A stretch of DNA of 64,000 bases from Tildeniella nuda ZEHNDER 1965/U140 (GTDB taxonomy: Bacteria; Cyanobacteriota; Cyanobacteriia; Leptolyngbyales; Leptolyngbyaceae): contig JAHHIG010000016.1 of the NCBI GenBank assembly GCA_019358895.1, positions 62,001 to 126,000 of the forward strand. Direction: 5' to 3'. The notes beneath the pieces are model-generated. The model did not search any database, had not been told where the DNA came from, and saw nothing but the letters and a program-made list of their open reading frames with translations. The first letter of the stretch is position 1. Each line of letters starts with the position of its first letter. Of the stretch, positions 40,756 through 46,218 are shown piece by piece. A program made the translations under genes and the position numbers.

Positions 40756-40783
40756 CGATCTAACCTCACCTTTAGAAAACGAG

Positions 40784-40817
40784 AAAACCTCAGAGCCATA
40801 TTGCCTCTGGGGTTTTT
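40784..40817 (+). terminator. Rho-independent terminator of ftsH
   Basis: 12-bp stem AAAACCTCAGAG/CTCTGGGGTTTT with one G-T pair, 9-base loop and T tract. It isolates ftsH from the operon that starts at 40999. Confidence 0.85.
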
Positions 40818-40998
40818 CTCCTTTATGGTGGTCTAAGGCTGCTGCCTTCATCCGCAGAGCCGTTAGGTATGACACACCTAAAAATCTTTTAGATGTGGTG
40901 AGTGCCTTCAAGAACCGCGCCCTTCTATATTCCTAATTGATTGATGTCCCATCCACTGACTCAACACATTCTCTGAAACACTAAAAAGAGGTCGATCA

Positions 40999-41619
40999 AT
41001 GGAAAACCGATTGACACAGGCACAGCTAACAAGACTGGTTGGCGAAGTCGAACGGCTTTCTCAACGACAGCAAGACGAACTCGATCGTGGTCAGGTGCAA
41101 GACATTCTGCGGGAACTCAACCTGTCGCCCGATCTGCTAGATGAGGCAATGATCCAGCTACAGCGCAAGGATGCGTTGATCGTGCAACAACGCCGCCAAC
41201 GTTGGCTAATCGGTGGTGCGATCGCCAGTTTGGTCGTGGCGATCGCAGGTGTCACAGTTTTCATGCAGCAGCAAAATCAAACCCTTAATCGCGTTTCGGC
41301 AGAGCAAAGCTGTGTTGCTTTAGCTCAGGATAGCTGCGACGATCGAACCCTGTCTCGCCAAAGCAGTCCAGAGTTGTTTTACAATGTGACGCTGAACGAT
41401 GCGCCAGTGGGTAAAAAGCTCCCCCTCACTTGCGATTGGGTTGCCCCTAACGGACAGGTTGTCAAACAAAATCGTTATGAGACTCGCCAAATTGACACAG
41501 CGGTTTGGACGACTCACTGCCGCTATCGGCTTGATGCCTCTGCACCAACGGGAACCTGGCAGGTGCGGCTGCGGTTAGACGATCGCCCACTCAGCGATGC
41601 CAAATTTGACGTAAAGTAG
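40999..41619 (+). CDS. Membrane-anchored protein with C-terminal beta domain (DUF3859-like)
   Basis: 206 residues. Cytoplasmic helical N-terminus (1-65, rich in Gln/Arg/Glu), one membrane helix (about 70-90, WLIGGAIASLVVAIAGVTVF), then an extracytoplasmic part with four Cys and a predicted beta-sandwich (LPLTCDWVAPNGQVVKQNRYETRQ, TWQVRLRLDDRPLSDAKFDV) that resembles DUF3859-type domains. GAGGTCG ribosome site. First gene of a compact operon: 21 bases to the asparagine-synthetase-like gene. Role unknown; it may link the pathway to the membrane or be incidental. Confidence 0.65.
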   Translation: MENRLTQAQLTRLVGEVERLSQRQQDELDRGQVQDILRELNLSPDLLDEAMIQLQRKDALIVQQRRQRWLIGGAIASLVVAIAGVTVFMQQQNQTLNRVSAEQSCVALAQDSCDDRTLSRQSSPELFYNVTLNDAPVGKKLPLTCDWVAPNGQVVKQNRYETRQIDTAVWTTHCRYRLDASAPTGTWQVRLRLDDRPLSDAKFDVK

Positions 41620-41640
41620 TCTGCACTAAAGCTATTTGCT

Positions 41641-43467
41641 ATGGGTAAGGCAATTCTGACTGCAATCAAGCCTCATCATGCAGTCGGTTACTGGGGGTAT
41701 GGCAGCCAAGCTGACCTGGAACAGATGCTGACCTGTGTGCTTGGCAGTGTGAGTGCCAATCATGGTAGCAATCAATGCACACGCCAACTGGGTCAATCGT
41801 CCAGTGATGTTAGGCAGGTTTGGGGTGTTGCTTACCTGGGGTTGCAGTTATCTGACGGTTCACAGTTGCCAGTAAGAACGATCGCCGCCCTCGCTGCGTC
41901 TGGTCAGTGTCAGCAAGCCGATGGTGCTTCCTTACTGGATGGTTGGGCAACACTGGGCGGCGATCGCTTCACGCTGGGTCGAGAACTCTTTGGACGGATG
42001 CCGCTGTACTGGACTCAAAGGGGACAGGTGCTCTGGTTTGCCTCACGCCTGAGTCTACTGCTGCCTCTAGTGGAAGCGCCCCAGGTCAGCATTCCTGCGC
42101 TCTATGGCTATAGTTACTTTTCCTATGTGCCGACTCCACTGACCCCTGTTGCTCAGATTCACTCTGTACCAGCCGGAACCGAGCAAACCTGGATCGCTGA
42201 TCAGGATACCTGCACGTTGTCGGCACTCAATGAAACACGATCGCTCGAATGGCAGGAAGCGTCAGAGCAAATTCAGGATGAGGCGATCGCGATCGCCCAA
42301 CTGCGATCGTTGCTCAAGGACGCAGTGGAACGCCAAATCACGGATCTGAGCGATGAACCAGTGGGTGTTTTGCTGTCAGGTGGGCTAGATTCGTCGATCG
42401 TGGCTGCCTTGTTAGTAGAAGCAGGCATCAAAGTCCGTGCCTATACCCTTGATTTTGGGACCGATGGCATTTCAGAGTATCCCTACGCCGAGCAGGTAGC
42501 TGAATTTCTCAATATTCCGTTGGTCAAAGTCGATGCCAGTCCCAAACGTGTGCGGCAAGCGCTGATCTCGACCGTACGAGCGCTGGATCTGCCCTTTGGT
42601 GATGGTGTGACGGTGCCACTGTTTCTCGTAATGCAGGCTGCCAGCCAGGATGTACGGGTGATCTTTAATGGTGAAGGAGGCGATCAACTGTTTGCAGGTT
42701 GGACGAATAAACCCTTGATTGCAGCCGATCTGTATCAAACCGTGCAGGCAGTAGAGTCCTTTGAGCAGCAATACCTTCGTACTTTTCATCGCTTGTGGGG
42801 CTACGAGGCAGAAATTTTTCAGCCAACGGTTCTGGCTCAACTGCCAGCGATCGCGCCGCAAACTTGGCTGCACGAGGCATTGAATCCAAGCTTTTCGCGC
42901 ACATTGCTACATCGTCTCCGTCGCGCTACCTTAATGCTGAAAGGGGCACAGAATATTCATCCCCGTGCAACAAATTTAGGGCTGGCACATGGCTTGCAAG
43001 TGCGATCGCCCTTTTGCGACTTAGCCCTCGCGCAATGGTCATTTCAACTCGCAGGCGAACTGCACCTGAACGCTGCCTGCGAGAAGTACATTCTGAAACG
43101 AGCGGTGGAACCCTGGCTACCAGCGGACATTGTCTGGCGGCAGAAGCGTGGCATGGGTGTGCCTTTAACCTCCTGGTGTTTAGATGGTCTGTGGCATGAA
43201 CTGGGTGTCTGGCTGAACCCTGGTTGTTTGCGCGACGAAGGTGTGTGGCAGCCTCATGTGGCAACTCGGATTGCGGCTGGCAAGCTTGGCACTATTCAAG
43301 GTCGCCGTATCGGTGAGAGCCTTTGGTTGCTTATGATGTGGCAGGTGTGGCAACACGTCGTTCTCGGTACGACACGCCCATCTGCTTCGTTGGATCATCC
43401 CTTCTGGCTGCCTGCTTTGCTGGGACGGCAATACCTTCGGCTGCAACGGGAGGCTCAGCAATGGTAG
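41641..43467 (+). CDS. Asparagine-synthetase-like enzyme lacking the glutaminase Cys
   Basis: 608 residues. C-terminal synthetase domain is intact: PP-loop SGGLDSS at 246-252, FNGEGGDQLFAGW near 342-354, LQVRSPFCDLALAQWS and EKYILKRAVEPWLP, so ATP-driven adenylation of a carboxylate is expected. The N-terminal domain still shows the amidotransferase fold (GRELFGRMPLYW, VLWFASRLSLLL) but starts MGKAILTAIKP instead of MCGI, so glutamine cannot be hydrolysed in the normal way. Enzymes that lost this Cys include beta-lactam synthetase, carbapenam synthetase and lasso peptide cyclase, which form amide bonds from other amines. Overlaps the next gene by seven bases. Product unknown. Confidence 0.85.
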   Translation: MGKAILTAIKPHHAVGYWGYGSQADLEQMLTCVLGSVSANHGSNQCTRQLGQSSSDVRQVWGVAYLGLQLSDGSQLPVRTIAALAASGQCQQADGASLLDGWATLGGDRFTLGRELFGRMPLYWTQRGQVLWFASRLSLLLPLVEAPQVSIPALYGYSYFSYVPTPLTPVAQIHSVPAGTEQTWIADQDTCTLSALNETRSLEWQEASEQIQDEAIAIAQLRSLLKDAVERQITDLSDEPVGVLLSGGLDSSIVAALLVEAGIKVRAYTLDFGTDGISEYPYAEQVAEFLNIPLVKVDASPKRVRQALISTVRALDLPFGDGVTVPLFLVMQAASQDVRVIFNGEGGDQLFAGWTNKPLIAADLYQTVQAVESFEQQYLRTFHRLWGYEAEIFQPTVLAQLPAIAPQTWLHEALNPSFSRTLLHRLRRATLMLKGAQNIHPRATNLGLAHGLQVRSPFCDLALAQWSFQLAGELHLNAACEKYILKRAVEPWLPADIVWRQKRGMGVPLTSWCLDGLWHELGVWLNPGCLRDEGVWQPHVATRIAAGKLGTIQGRRIGESLWLLMMWQVWQHVVLGTTRPSASLDHPFWLPALLGRQYLRLQREAQQW

Positions 43468-44891
43468 CGGTTTCAGCCCCATCTCCACCTTTCTGTCTGG
43501 AGCTGGCAACACAATTACTCACAACGTATGGTTCGCCTTTGTACGTCTATGAGGGCGATCGCCTGCGCCAGACCATTCGACACATCACGCAGTCTATTCT
43601 TTATCCACAGACTCGCTTTCACTTTGCCAGCGTGACCAATGGCAATATTGCCTTACTGCAAATTTTCCGCGAGTCAGGGTGGGGGCTTCATGCCAATACC
43701 CCTGGTGACATTTACCTTGGACTTCATGCAGGCTTTCATCCTAGCCAGATTATCTACAGCGGTAGCAACCTCGATCGCGCTGAAATGGCGCAAGTTCTTC
43801 GCTGGGGCGTTACTACGCTCAACCTCGATAGCCTCGCACAGTTGCAGTTGTGTGGTGAGGTTTGGCGATCGTTGAGCGAGGGATCAGCGAATAAGGTAGA
43901 GGAGGAGGACACCGCAGAGGCGCAGAGGCGCAGAGAAGGCTTATTAGCTCAAAATGTTCTACCGCTTCGGATCGGGCTTCGGCTTAATTTTCCTGCACTG
44001 ACGGGCAAGAGTCGGATTGGGGTGCATCCGGATGACTTTCCCACTGCGGTGAACATGGCTCGGCAAGCTGGACTTAAAATCAGTGGGCTGCACTTTTACA
44101 AAGGGACGGGAACTAACGCCACGACTGCTTTTACAGAGGCGATCGCCATCGTTCTCGCCACTGCCAGCCAACTACCAGATTGGACTTATCTCGACTTTGG
44201 TGGCGGTTTCGGCTATCCCTATCATCACGATGGCGTTACATTCGACTGGCATCAATTTGGTGCTGCCTTGAGCGATCGTCTCTCGCAACTCGATCGACCA
44301 ATTGATCTAGTGATTGAACCAGGACGCGCTGCGATCGCGTCCTGCGCCACACTTCTAACTCAAGTTGTCTCTGTCAAATGGCAAAATAGCAAGCAAATCG
44401 TTGGCGTAGACACCACTGTTGCAAATCTTTCTGTACCATCTGTTCACGGCGGGTACCGAGAAATCGCAGCGTGGCAAGAAGGGCAGAAGGCAGAAGGCAG
44501 AAGGCAGAAGGCAGAACGCAGAGGGCAGAACGCAGAAGGCAGAGGGCAGAAGGCAGAAGGCAGAGCTGATTCAGAATCCACATTCCTCTTCACCCCTTCA
44601 CCCCCTCACCCCCTCACTCCCGACTCCCGACTCCCGACTCCCGACTTTCTCACAAACATCTGCGGCAACACGACCTACTCCCGTGATTATCTAGGCAAAA
44701 ATTGTCAGTTGCCAGCTCTAAAAACAGGTGACATTCTCGCCATTTTGGATGTAGGCGCGTATGGTTATGCAATGTCCTCTCATTTTTTGCACCGTCCCCG
44801 CCCCGCCGAAGTGTTACTAGAAAACAAAAAACATCGCCTGATTCGGACGCGAGAAAGCTACAGCACACTAATAGAAAATCAGGTATTTTAA
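43461..44891 (+). CDS. LysA-fold PLP-type protein without catalytic Lys and Cys
   Basis: 476 residues from ATG 43461 (GGGAGG ribosome site 8 bases before). Diaminopimelate/ornithine decarboxylase fold III: GGGFG at 247-251, EPGRA at 286-290, GAYGYAMSS at 432-440. But the strand that should read YAVKAN is FASVTN (55-60), so the PLP lysine is replaced by Val58, and the GPxCxSxD loop reads GNTTYSRD (402-409), so the catalytic Cys is Thr. The protein is therefore not an ordinary decarboxylase. Two STRR-encoded insertions lie at residues about 144-161 and 338-397. Translationally coupled to the asparagine-synthetase-like gene. Confidence 0.8.
43896..43943. repeat. STRR insert 1 in the LysA-like gene
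   Basis: gaggaggaggac then cgcagaggcgcagaggcgcagag; the latter is the same repeat family as at 52941-52975. Encodes Glu/Arg-rich residues. Confidence 0.85.
44472..44651. repeat. STRR insert 2 in the LysA-like gene
   Basis: About thirteen ggcagaa/ggcagag units followed by accccctc and actcccg units, 180 bases, giving a 60-residue Gln/Lys/Ala/Glu/Gly then Pro/Thr/Ser stretch. Confidence 0.92.
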
Positions 44892-44910
44892 GTTATTCAC
44901 CGGAGGCTAT

Positions 44911-46218
44911 ATGAAATGTATTCGCTGTAGCACTGACAATACATTAAAAGATCGGACGGACAATCAAGGTCGGTGTAAAAGCTGCCAGCACCCGTTTGCG
45001 TTTGAGCCAACAGCGATGGGCAAAGTTAAAGTAACTGATCCAATGTTTGCAAAAGCGATCGCCGATCTTTCAGCAAACAATACGCTCTTTTTTACATCCA
45101 AACAATTCCTTTATTTTCTCGATAAACGCTTTAAAAAGAAGGGGACGATACCAACGATCGGCTGTCTCTTTCTTTACCTTTTCTTAGCAACGATGGCAAC
45201 ATTTACCGCAGGTTCTGTTCTCTTTGAGGGAACAAGAAGCGTTCTGGCTCTCTTTGCACCTGGAATTCTGCTTAGTACCGTTGCAGGAATCATCCTATTC
45301 AAAATAAGTAGTTCTACTAAATCTGATCCTAAACTACGCCAGAGTAGCGCCAGAATCTTGCAAATCATTGGTGGCATCGTTCTGGCAGTAGGCATCATCG
45401 CTGGTATTGTAGGCAACTCATTTTTTCTATTTTTTATCAGCGTTCTTCTAGGAATTGGAATGCTCTACTTAGGTGTTCGTTTGCGCGGACACCAAACACT
45501 GAAATATCAAGAATTTACGGTTGATCCTACTCAGTTTCAAGGTTGGCTCGATCGCTGGCAGCAAATTAATGGTTTGGCATCTAATTTGCTACCACCGACT
45601 CGTGAAAGTGCAACACCTGCAACAGTGAATCCCGATATTACTGCTTATAGCTTTGATCGGCTAGTTGTTTGTAGTAGTGCTGCGATCGCTCAAATCTTAA
45701 TTGCCAACAATTTTCACTTTGAAAATAACTGTGCGATTCTCAGTATTACAGGTTATCCACAGGGTATTTTTGACACCACAATGGCAATGCTACGCCGCAA
45801 TCCTGAACTAAAAGTGTATGCCTTTCATGATTGCAATCCTAGAGGCATCAGCTTGATTCATCAAATCAAAACCAGTCCTAAATGGTTTCAAAATAGCAAC
45901 GTTGAAATTTTTGATGTTGGCTTGCTACCGCGACAAGTTTTTCTCAGTAAATCCATATTTATTCAACGTGCGGCTGATACTATTCAAACCGCAAAACAGA
46001 TGCCATCTGACGTGCGATCGAGCCTTTCAGATGAAGAGATTGCGTGGTTAGAAGCAGGCAATATGGTTGAGCTAGAATCTTTTACGCCTCAACAGCTTAT
46101 CCACATTCTCAATCGCGGTATTGCGGGCAGTCGAGAACTAGGAAGTGATGACAGCAGTCTGATTTTTATCGATAGCGGCTATGGTAATTCTTACTATGTG
46201 GTTGAAAGCTTCGGGTAA
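44911..46218 (+). CDS. Zinc-ribbon, multi-pass membrane protein with Toprim-like C-terminus
   Basis: 435 residues. CIRC (3-6) and CKSC (22-25) make an N-terminal zinc ribbon. Four hydrophobic helices follow at about 84-190. The cytoplasmic C-terminus (about 230-435) has VVCSSAAIAQILIANNF, ILSITGYPQGIFD and LKVYAFHDCNPRGISLIHQI; the last resembles the DxDPxG strand of Toprim domains of Spo11/TopoVI-A, with FHDCNPRG. I do not recognise a characterised family. CGGAGG ribosome site; 19 bases after the LysA-like gene, so probably the last gene of the operon. DNA is more AT-rich than the two genes before it, so its membership is less certain. Confidence 0.6.
   Translation: MKCIRCSTDNTLKDRTDNQGRCKSCQHPFAFEPTAMGKVKVTDPMFAKAIADLSANNTLFFTSKQFLYFLDKRFKKKGTIPTIGCLFLYLFLATMATFTAGSVLFEGTRSVLALFAPGILLSTVAGIILFKISSSTKSDPKLRQSSARILQIIGGIVLAVGIIAGIVGNSFFLFFISVLLGIGMLYLGVRLRGHQTLKYQEFTVDPTQFQGWLDRWQQINGLASNLLPPTRESATPATVNPDITAYSFDRLVVCSSAAIAQILIANNFHFENNCAILSITGYPQGIFDTTMAMLRRNPELKVYAFHDCNPRGISLIHQIKTSPKWFQNSNVEIFDVGLLPRQVFLSKSIFIQRAADTIQTAKQMPSDVRSSLSDEEIAWLEAGNMVELESFTPQQLIHILNRGIAGSRELGSDDSSLIFIDSGYGNSYYVVESFG

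Follow-up and report, generated by a model that had tools for sequence, protein, structure and literature searches.

Asparagine synthetase B (AsnB) and the asparagine-synthetase-like (AS-like) synthetases, modelled in NCBIfam as TIGR01536, TIGR03104 and TIGR03108, share the Asn_synthase ATP-pyrophosphatase domain. Beta-lactam synthetase is an AS-like amide synthetase, and the lasso peptide cyclase is another AS-like relative. Some AS-like enzymes act on peptide C-termini; PesC, TsrC and ScdTA are described as such in a 2026 preprint (PMC13060819). The same preprint reports that a Glu-Tyr carboxylate-recognition dyad (Glu363-Tyr368, PesC numbering) is conserved in PesC and four other asparagine-synthetase-family enzymes, and that a Tyr to Phe change in the dyad abolishes PesC activity. 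An AS-like protein is also paired with a LysA-like protein in the XrtA/PEP-CTERM pair (TIGR03108 and TIGR03099). Here, we describe a locus of the cyanobacterium Tildeniella nuda ZEHNDER 1965/U140 that likewise combines the two. The window analysed comprises 64,000 nucleotides (contig JAHHIG010000016.1, positions 62,001 to 126,000 of the forward strand), and it contains an operon, g1 to g4, which encodes an AS-like ligase (g2), a protein of LysA fold (g3) and two proteins, g1 and g4, through which the operon is probably linked to the membrane. The whole Tildeniella genome was searched, not the window alone, and a second AS-like gene, g5, was found outside the window. Genes g1 to g4 together with g5 are a five-gene module that is inherited in a near all-or-none manner under strong purifying selection, and for which no function was found.

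The distribution of the genes was followed in 58 relatives, in a wider draw that took 291 genomes from the class, and in the best 80 named loci. The g3 family (best matches of at least 64% identity) occurred in 18 of the 58 relatives, and g2 and a g5-type gene occurred in the same 18, the g2 of genome G034 being a contig-end fragment only. Genes g2 and g3 were adjacent in 16 of these 18 relatives, apart in G033 and on different contigs in G034. Among the other 40 relatives, there was a broken g5 copy in G057. In the wider draw, g4, g3 and g2 were found in an identical set of 37 genomes; a further row of the g2 search, G255, was a g5-type match of 125 bits. Gene g5 was present in those 37 genomes plus G057, G255 and G256, and g1 in those 37 plus six others. 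G057 lacks g1 to g4 and carries g5 in two pieces with open reading frames (ORFs) between them (L185:8341-11037), as expected of a leftover part. By eye, the intervening ORFs resemble a transposase. G256 holds a contig-end fragment of g5 and no g1 to g4. In G002 and G030, g4 is located apart from the cassette, as is g1 in G008, G225 and G291. Carriers and non-carriers occurred together within at least five genera (our genus codes g1, g3, g6, g15 and g17, unrelated to the gene names), which suggests that the set has been gained or lost together several times. The sole non-carrier seen in the genus coded g1 was G003, an assembly that is 91% complete and split into 700 contigs.

The gene sets of the named loci were read from up to 10 kb fetched on either side, and several loci end at contig ends. 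With this scope, all five genes were present in 45 of the 80 loci, g1 to g4 in 20, g3 and g4 only in 7, g3, g4 and g5 in 5, and g2 to g5 in 3; g3 and g4 were thus found in every locus. Gene g5 was convergent and downstream in 41 loci. The median gaps were -31 bp between g2 and g3 and 29 bp between g3 and g4, with mechanically assigned ORF starts. Carriers included Nostoc, Calothrix, Microcoleus, Moorena, Okeania, Dolichospermum, Chamaesiphon and, on a plasmid, Gloeothece. The ratios of nonsynonymous to synonymous substitution rates (dN/dS) against Stenomitos frigidus were 0.110 for g1, 0.141 for g2, 0.113 for g4, 0.127 for g5 and, with the repeat regions excluded, 0.108 for g3. Nine further families recurred in the flanks, each in 6 to 13 of the 80 loci, and they were rejected as parts of the module on account of this low recurrence. 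Representatives of five of them were scanned and identified as glyoxalase-like, DUF7219, short-chain dehydrogenase, AAA ATPase and response regulator.

Sequence motifs of the two ligases were compared with those of AsnB and the AS-like enzymes. Both g2 and g5 have the Asn_synthase domain with an SGGLDS-type loop and equivalents of Glu348 and Lys449 of AsnB. However, they lack the N-terminal Cys, their glutamine amidotransferase (GATase) domain is degenerate, and the Glu-Tyr dyad is replaced. The Asn_synthase domain of g2 scored 206.7 bits, and its GATase domain was matched as a C-terminal scrap below the cut-off. In an alignment to 1ct9, residues E345, Q349, W354 and K502 of g2 fell on positions 348, 352, 357 and 449 of E. 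coli AsnB; the positions in the other ligases were taken from the motif. Counts were made on ORFs of the named loci with at least 450 residues and no masked positions (65 g2 and 50 g5). The Met-Cys-Gly (MCG) start, which carries the nucleophilic Cys of the glutaminase, was seen in none of them, and every one had the SGG(L/I)DS loop (SGGLDS in the g2 of the window) and the equivalent of Glu348. The Lys449-like residue was present in all 65 g2 and in 49 of the 50 g5. The sequence-only reading of this DNA had described g2 as AS-like with an intact ATP domain and no N-terminal Cys, and this description was borne out. Its proposal that g2 activates a carboxylate is no more than plausible: the loop, Glu and Lys are retained, but the dyad positions of g2 are Gln and Trp.

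The dyad of PesC was equated with E352 and Y357 of E. coli AsnB through motif spacing, and this correspondence is therefore a putative one. Not every member of the superfamily has the Tyr, as the hydroxyamidotransferase 7ylz aligns a His there. The replacements, Gln/Trp in g2 and Pro/Pro in g5, define two ligase subfamilies of which we found no description. The g5-type protein was 29 to 34% identical to g2 (at least 116 bits among the 58 relatives), and neither ligase reached the curated cut-offs that NCBIfam sets for its synthetase and cyclase models. For the lasso peptide cyclase model NF033535 the scores were 61.3 bits (g2) and 151.5 bits (g5) against a cut-off of 525, and for TIGR03108 they were 152.8 and 224.5 bits against 816.9. 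The Tildeniella genome gave five Asn_synthase matches, namely g2, g5, L002, L004 and L005. L002 and L004 are AsnB homologues with the usual Met-Cys-Gly start. L005 (G000:C9:194060-194224) is a weak match of 29 bits over 56 profile positions, probably due to chance.

The protein g3 shares the fold, the GGGFG loop, EPGR and GAYG with the diaminopimelate decarboxylase LysA (TIGR01048; 2p3e, 1ko0 and 3n2b). It scored 236 bits with TIGR01048, below the cut-off of 297.9, and 103.1 bits with TIGR03099, for which the cut-off is 478.45. Its predicted structure (mean predicted local distance difference test score, pLDDT, of 80) adopted the LysA fold, and Foldseek matched it to 1ko0 with an E-value of 7.6e-30 and a TM-score of 0.70. 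Unlike LysA, g3 has Val in place of the lysine that binds pyridoxal phosphate (PLP), Thr in place of the catalytic Cys, and Tyr in place of the second His of the HxH motif, which has a role in LysA. The first two replacements were located by profile alignment to the solved decarboxylases 2p3e and 3n2b, in which the lysine column (AVKAN) is Val and the catalytic-Cys column Thr in g3. In the best 80 named orthologues that were kept, the Schiff-base lysine position was Val in all 80 (77 by pattern and 3 inspected singly), and the Cys position was Thr, in the motif CGNTTYS, again in all 80. Neither Lys nor Cys was thus restored in any of these 80 close homologues, and the Val58 and Thr405 that the sequence-only reading had assigned within a LysA fold were corroborated. 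Two sequences were left out of these counts, L120_11 (23 bits) and G036/L053, a relative of 30% identity that has the Lys (YAMKSN) and was rejected as a member of a different family. Among 35 aligned orthologues, the GGGFG phosphate loop, EPGR and GAYG did not vary, Y213 at the second His of HxH was invariant, and the HxHxGS and Cys motifs departed throughout from the diaminopimelate decarboxylase form. By contrast with these losses, the residues of the phosphate cup survive. The same genome encodes an ordinary LysA (contig C27), which retains the Lys (YASKAW), HAHIGSQ and the Cys (CESGD).

An aldimine of PLP with the usual lysine is impossible in g3, which is therefore presumably no ordinary decarboxylase. 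A sequencing artefact or decay of the gene was ruled out because its dN/dS is low and its odd residues are conserved. Between EPGRA and the Thr405 motif, g3 of the window contains an insert of simple repeats, in which the 7-bp unit AGAAGGC occurs 12.4 times, followed by TCACCCCC four times and ACTCCCG 4.4 times. The same translated repeat was matched elsewhere in the genome. Orthologues bear other insertions at this site and near residues 145 to 165, from which it follows that two loops tolerate insertions.

The predicted model of g4 (mean pLDDT of 88, predicted TM-score of 0.84) consists of a zinc ribbon (residues 1-33), four helices of transmembrane (TM) length (82-195) that probably span the membrane, a Toprim-like domain (about 240-405) and a disordered tail. 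The fold of the C-terminal domain matched the Toprim domain of topoisomerase VI A and Spo11 (PF21180; 1d3y); g4 differs from these in that its domain comes with a zinc ribbon and four TM-like helices. Against solved structures, 1d3y (topoisomerase VI A) was hit with a probability of 1.00, although the best E-value was only 1e-3. Among the 50 listed of 448 structure matches, all those with a probability of at least 0.98 were topoisomerase VI A or Spo11. PF21180 scored g4 at 23.7 bits, slightly below its cut-off of 24.1, and a sequence search against Protein Data Bank chains with E-values up to 1 gave no match. Reading by eye what we take to be the Toprim motif, we saw Cys at the Glu position and HDCN or HDCS for DxD in the cyanobacterial proteins. 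The small protein g1 has an N-terminal part, one hydrophobic TM-like stretch and a C-terminal domain weakly like MG2, an arrangement that would place it in the membrane.

The last ~25 residues of g4 are rich in Ser, Asp and Gly, have a pLDDT of about 52 and are highly variable. The extreme C-terminus, however, is nearly fixed. In 83 of 85 g4 copies of at least 360 residues the protein ended in Phe-Gly (FG), as SFG in 78, TFG in 3 and NFG in 2; the two without it were L152_3 (-SLV) and L179_6 (-QKC). In 42 aligned copies, the entropy was 0.37, 0.16 and 0.16 bits at positions -3 to -1, compared to about 2.4 to 3.4 bits at positions -45 to -8. The divergent g4 lineages of G123, G142, G184 and G244 retained the end as -TFG or -NFG. 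More than one g4 ORF was present in 16 of the 80 named loci, and most extra copies kept -FG; those that did not were fragments, one masked copy and L152_3. Tandem or nearby duplicates, most with -FG, were seen in L143 (three copies in tandem), L135, L167, L177, L158, L115, L138 and L117. A miniature g4 of 106 residues, L118_13, has the zinc-ribbon start and a tail ending -ESFG, and is much too short for four helices plus a Toprim-like domain.

Two plasmids extended the comparison. The complete five-gene set was found on plasmid NC_014534.1 of Gloeothece verrucosa PCC 7822 (L181:8238-15056), a 474-kb record given as linear, where the genes are annotated in order as hypothetical, asparagine synthetase B family, decarboxylase, hypothetical and asparagine synthase-related. 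Gloeothece verrucosa PCC 7822 is a unicellular cyanobacterium, and a filament-specific function was rejected because it carries the whole set. The plasmid was typed as conjugative, and a protelomerase-family gene lies ~1.7 kb beyond g5. A few kilobases upstream of the module (L181:3450-4769) is a membrane protein that has a TIGR04222 domain and ends in GCGCGC, and the annotation near the locus includes a small PEP-CTERM ORF.

The plasmid NZ_CP108509.1 of Streptomyces sp. NBC_01237 has an apparent operon (L182:11746-18140) of a cupin-like ORF, three g4-like ORFs, a 179-residue protein and a g5-like ligase, followed by an aldehyde dehydrogenase. The g4-like ORFs scored 41, 24 and 55 bits in order, with zinc ribbons in the first two, and two of the three have DAD at what is presumably the DxD of the Toprim motif, as judged by eye. 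The ligase belongs to the g5 family (486 bits, signature NGEGGDPVFGGP), and its nearest match was the g5 of Gloeothece (41%, 354 bits), other plasmid matches reaching at most 184 bits. It scored higher with TIGR03108 (238.8 bits) than with asparagine synthase (225.7), and 117.5 bits with the lasso cyclase model. The 179-residue protein has what looks like a single TM stretch, and its Gly/Ser/Asp tail finishes in -DDDFG; among 269 stop-to-stop frames of at least 60 residues in 30.5 kb, it was the only one with an FG end. This single case separates a core (the Toprim/zinc-ribbon protein, the FG tail and the ligase) from cyanobacterial additions. Further actinobacterial cases were sought among plasmids, and an asparagine-synthetase match in Nonomuraea was rejected as a member, with SGQGADEVFAGY and no g4-like ORF in its stretch.

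We favour, though only tentatively, the explanation that the module is an ATP-dependent amide-ligase system tethered to the membrane. In it, g3 would act as a binding or activating partner that does not decarboxylate, and the tail of g4 would dock the ligases. The ligases g2 and g5 would activate a carboxylate as its adenylate and couple it to an amine from a source other than their own glutaminase domain. The protein g3, whose gene overlaps that of g2, would retain the LysA-type phosphate-binding cup and bind a ligand or activate g2; g4 and g1 would tie the complex to the membrane; and the flexible g4 tail ending -SFG would dock the soluble ligase or ligases. Co-inheritance and intact ATP-site motifs of g2 and g5 are established from the sequences. 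Several observations weigh against this explanation. At the dyad positions, all 65 g2 have Gln/Trp and all 50 g5 have Pro/Pro, and substrate activation must therefore differ from that of the known amidating enzymes, or be lost. The g3 family was not found on the Streptomyces plasmid (best match of 65 bits). In the draw of 291 genomes, an intact g5 (580 residues) stands without g1 to g4 in G255, and six genomes hold g1 alone of the set. The suggested docking by the tail draws on its conservation plus one actinobacterial case.

The same tail could instead be a substrate, with g2, g5 or both adenylating the C-terminal carboxylate of g4 (-Ser-Phe-Gly) and then amidating it or coupling it with an amine that g3 might present, in protein tagging or precursor modification at the membrane. 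AS-like enzymes with peptide C-termini as substrates have precedents in PesC, TsrC and ScdTA (PMC13060819). The FG end on a hypervariable tail, its retention in most second copies and in the 106-residue miniature, and its place on a separate small protein beside the Streptomyces g5-like gene all suit this idea. A docking motif would, however, show equally strict conservation, neither ligase has the dyad of the PesC-type C-terminal amidating enzymes, and g4, with its 435 residues and four TM-like helices, is unlike the usual precursor peptides. We regard the substrate role as rather improbable. Its specific form, in which the -SFG end is activated by the Q/W and P/P ligases and joined to an amine held by g3, is also unlikely; under it, a simpler actinobacterial form would put the tail on its own small protein. 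Rather improbable, too, is a complex of repurposed enzymes that has a sensory or regulatory function and no turnover, with g2 and g5 binding ATP or an adenylate, g3 an amino acid or a PLP-like ligand, g4 acting as a degenerate membrane Toprim protein and g1 sensing the outside. The parallel losses (the Cys of both ligases, the Glu/Tyr dyad, and the PLP Lys and Cys of g3) would fit such a complex, as would the Toprim Glu and second Asp that are presumably altered in cyanobacterial g4 and the absence of any family other than g1 to g5 from more than 13 of the 80 loci. On the other hand, the ligases keep the ATP loop, the general-base Glu and the catalytic Lys near-perfectly, beyond the needs of pure binding, and no regulator is conserved next to the module, the response-regulator family C7 being present in only 6 of the 80 loci.

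Two further readings were considered. A peptidoglycan-directed role, in which g3 keeps a diaminopimelate-like pocket and g2 and g5 aminate or amidate a carboxylate of a wall precursor, would agree with the closeness of g3 to diaminopimelate decarboxylases in sequence and fold and with the probable membrane link through g1 and g4. It is nevertheless very unlikely, considering that the altered HxHxGS and Cys motifs of g3 do not imply diaminopimelate binding, that the flanks have no family above the recurrence given above, and that no g3 accompanies the Streptomyces relative on its plasmid. A cyanobacterial offshoot of the exosortase (XrtA/PEP-CTERM) pair of amidotransferase and PLP decarboxylase, acting in exopolysaccharide modification, is the least probable of all and hardly to be expected. 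It would account for TIGR03108 (g2 and g5) and TIGR03099 (g3) among the secondary matches, for the rank of TIGR03108 above asparagine synthase in the Streptomyces relative and for the small PEP-CTERM ORF near the Gloeothece locus. However, these scores are far below the cut-offs, g2, g3 and g5 of Tildeniella score higher with the asparagine synthase and LysA models, and g3 lacks the PLP lysine. The flanks also offer no companion, although four of the nine recurrent families were not identified and exosortase was not searched directly.

A known anti-phage defence system was rejected as well, as PADLOC-DB gave no specific defence model: g2 matched only QueC (26.6 bits, through the shared ATP-binding fold) and PDC-S21 (10.3 bits), and a scan of six other proteins gave no match. 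Phage origin was rejected, since relatives of g3 were absent from viral contigs and those of g4 from phage genomes. In the open-access literature, we recognised no paper describing the module, which is weak evidence of novelty and agrees with the view of the sequence-only reading that the pathway is undescribed. The labels 'decarboxylase' and 'asparagine synthetase B family' in NCBI-style annotation mislead for its proteins. The module brings together two asparagine-synthetase subfamilies, each with a diagnostic signature in its active site, a family of LysA fold from which the PLP lysine is gone, and a probable membrane protein whose Toprim domain resembles that of topoisomerase VI A and whose C-terminus is nearly fixed.

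The features of the locus are listed in Table 1. The ORF coordinates agree with the compact four-gene operon of the sequence-only reading, whose interpretation is partly supported overall. The linkage of its genes held, while g3 as the supplier of the amino partner is conjectural; its account of a four-gene pathway missed g5, the Toprim-like fold and C-terminus of g4, and the actinobacterial relative.

Table 1. Coordinates of the operon, its genes and the residues discussed, in window positions unless a contig is named
Feature	Position	Strand	Basis
Operon g1-g4	40999-46218	+	ORF list; intergenic spacings of 21, -7 and 19 bases
Intrinsic terminator of the ftsH-like gene upstream, setting the operon apart	40784-40817	+	Hairpin fold
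Gene 1 (g1), 206 aa	40999-41619	+	ORF; domain and hydrophobicity reading
Gene 2 (g2), 608 aa, AS-like ligase	41641-43467	+	Profile matches, alignment
Gene 3 (g3), 476 aa, LysA-fold protein	43461-44891	+	Profiles, alignment, predicted structure
Gene 4 (g4), 435 aa	44911-46218	+	Profiles, predicted structure, sequence reading
Val58 codon of g3, position of the PLP Schiff-base lysine	43632-43634	+	Alignment
Thr405 codon of g3, position of the catalytic Cys of diaminopimelate decarboxylase	44673-44675	+	Alignment
In-frame simple-repeat insert in g3	44477-44646	+	Repeat search
C-terminal Ser-Phe-Gly of g4, nearly invariant	46207-46215	+	Orthologue ends
g5, second AS-like gene without the N-terminal Cys	G000:C35:173556-175340		Outside the window, same genome

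The strong terminator that had been noted upstream of g1 was also confirmed. The hairpin was absent from the output of a simple consensus terminator scan; when positions 40776-40826 were folded, the energy was -20.4 kcal/mol, compared to a mean of -8.2 for shuffled sequences (z of -4.9).

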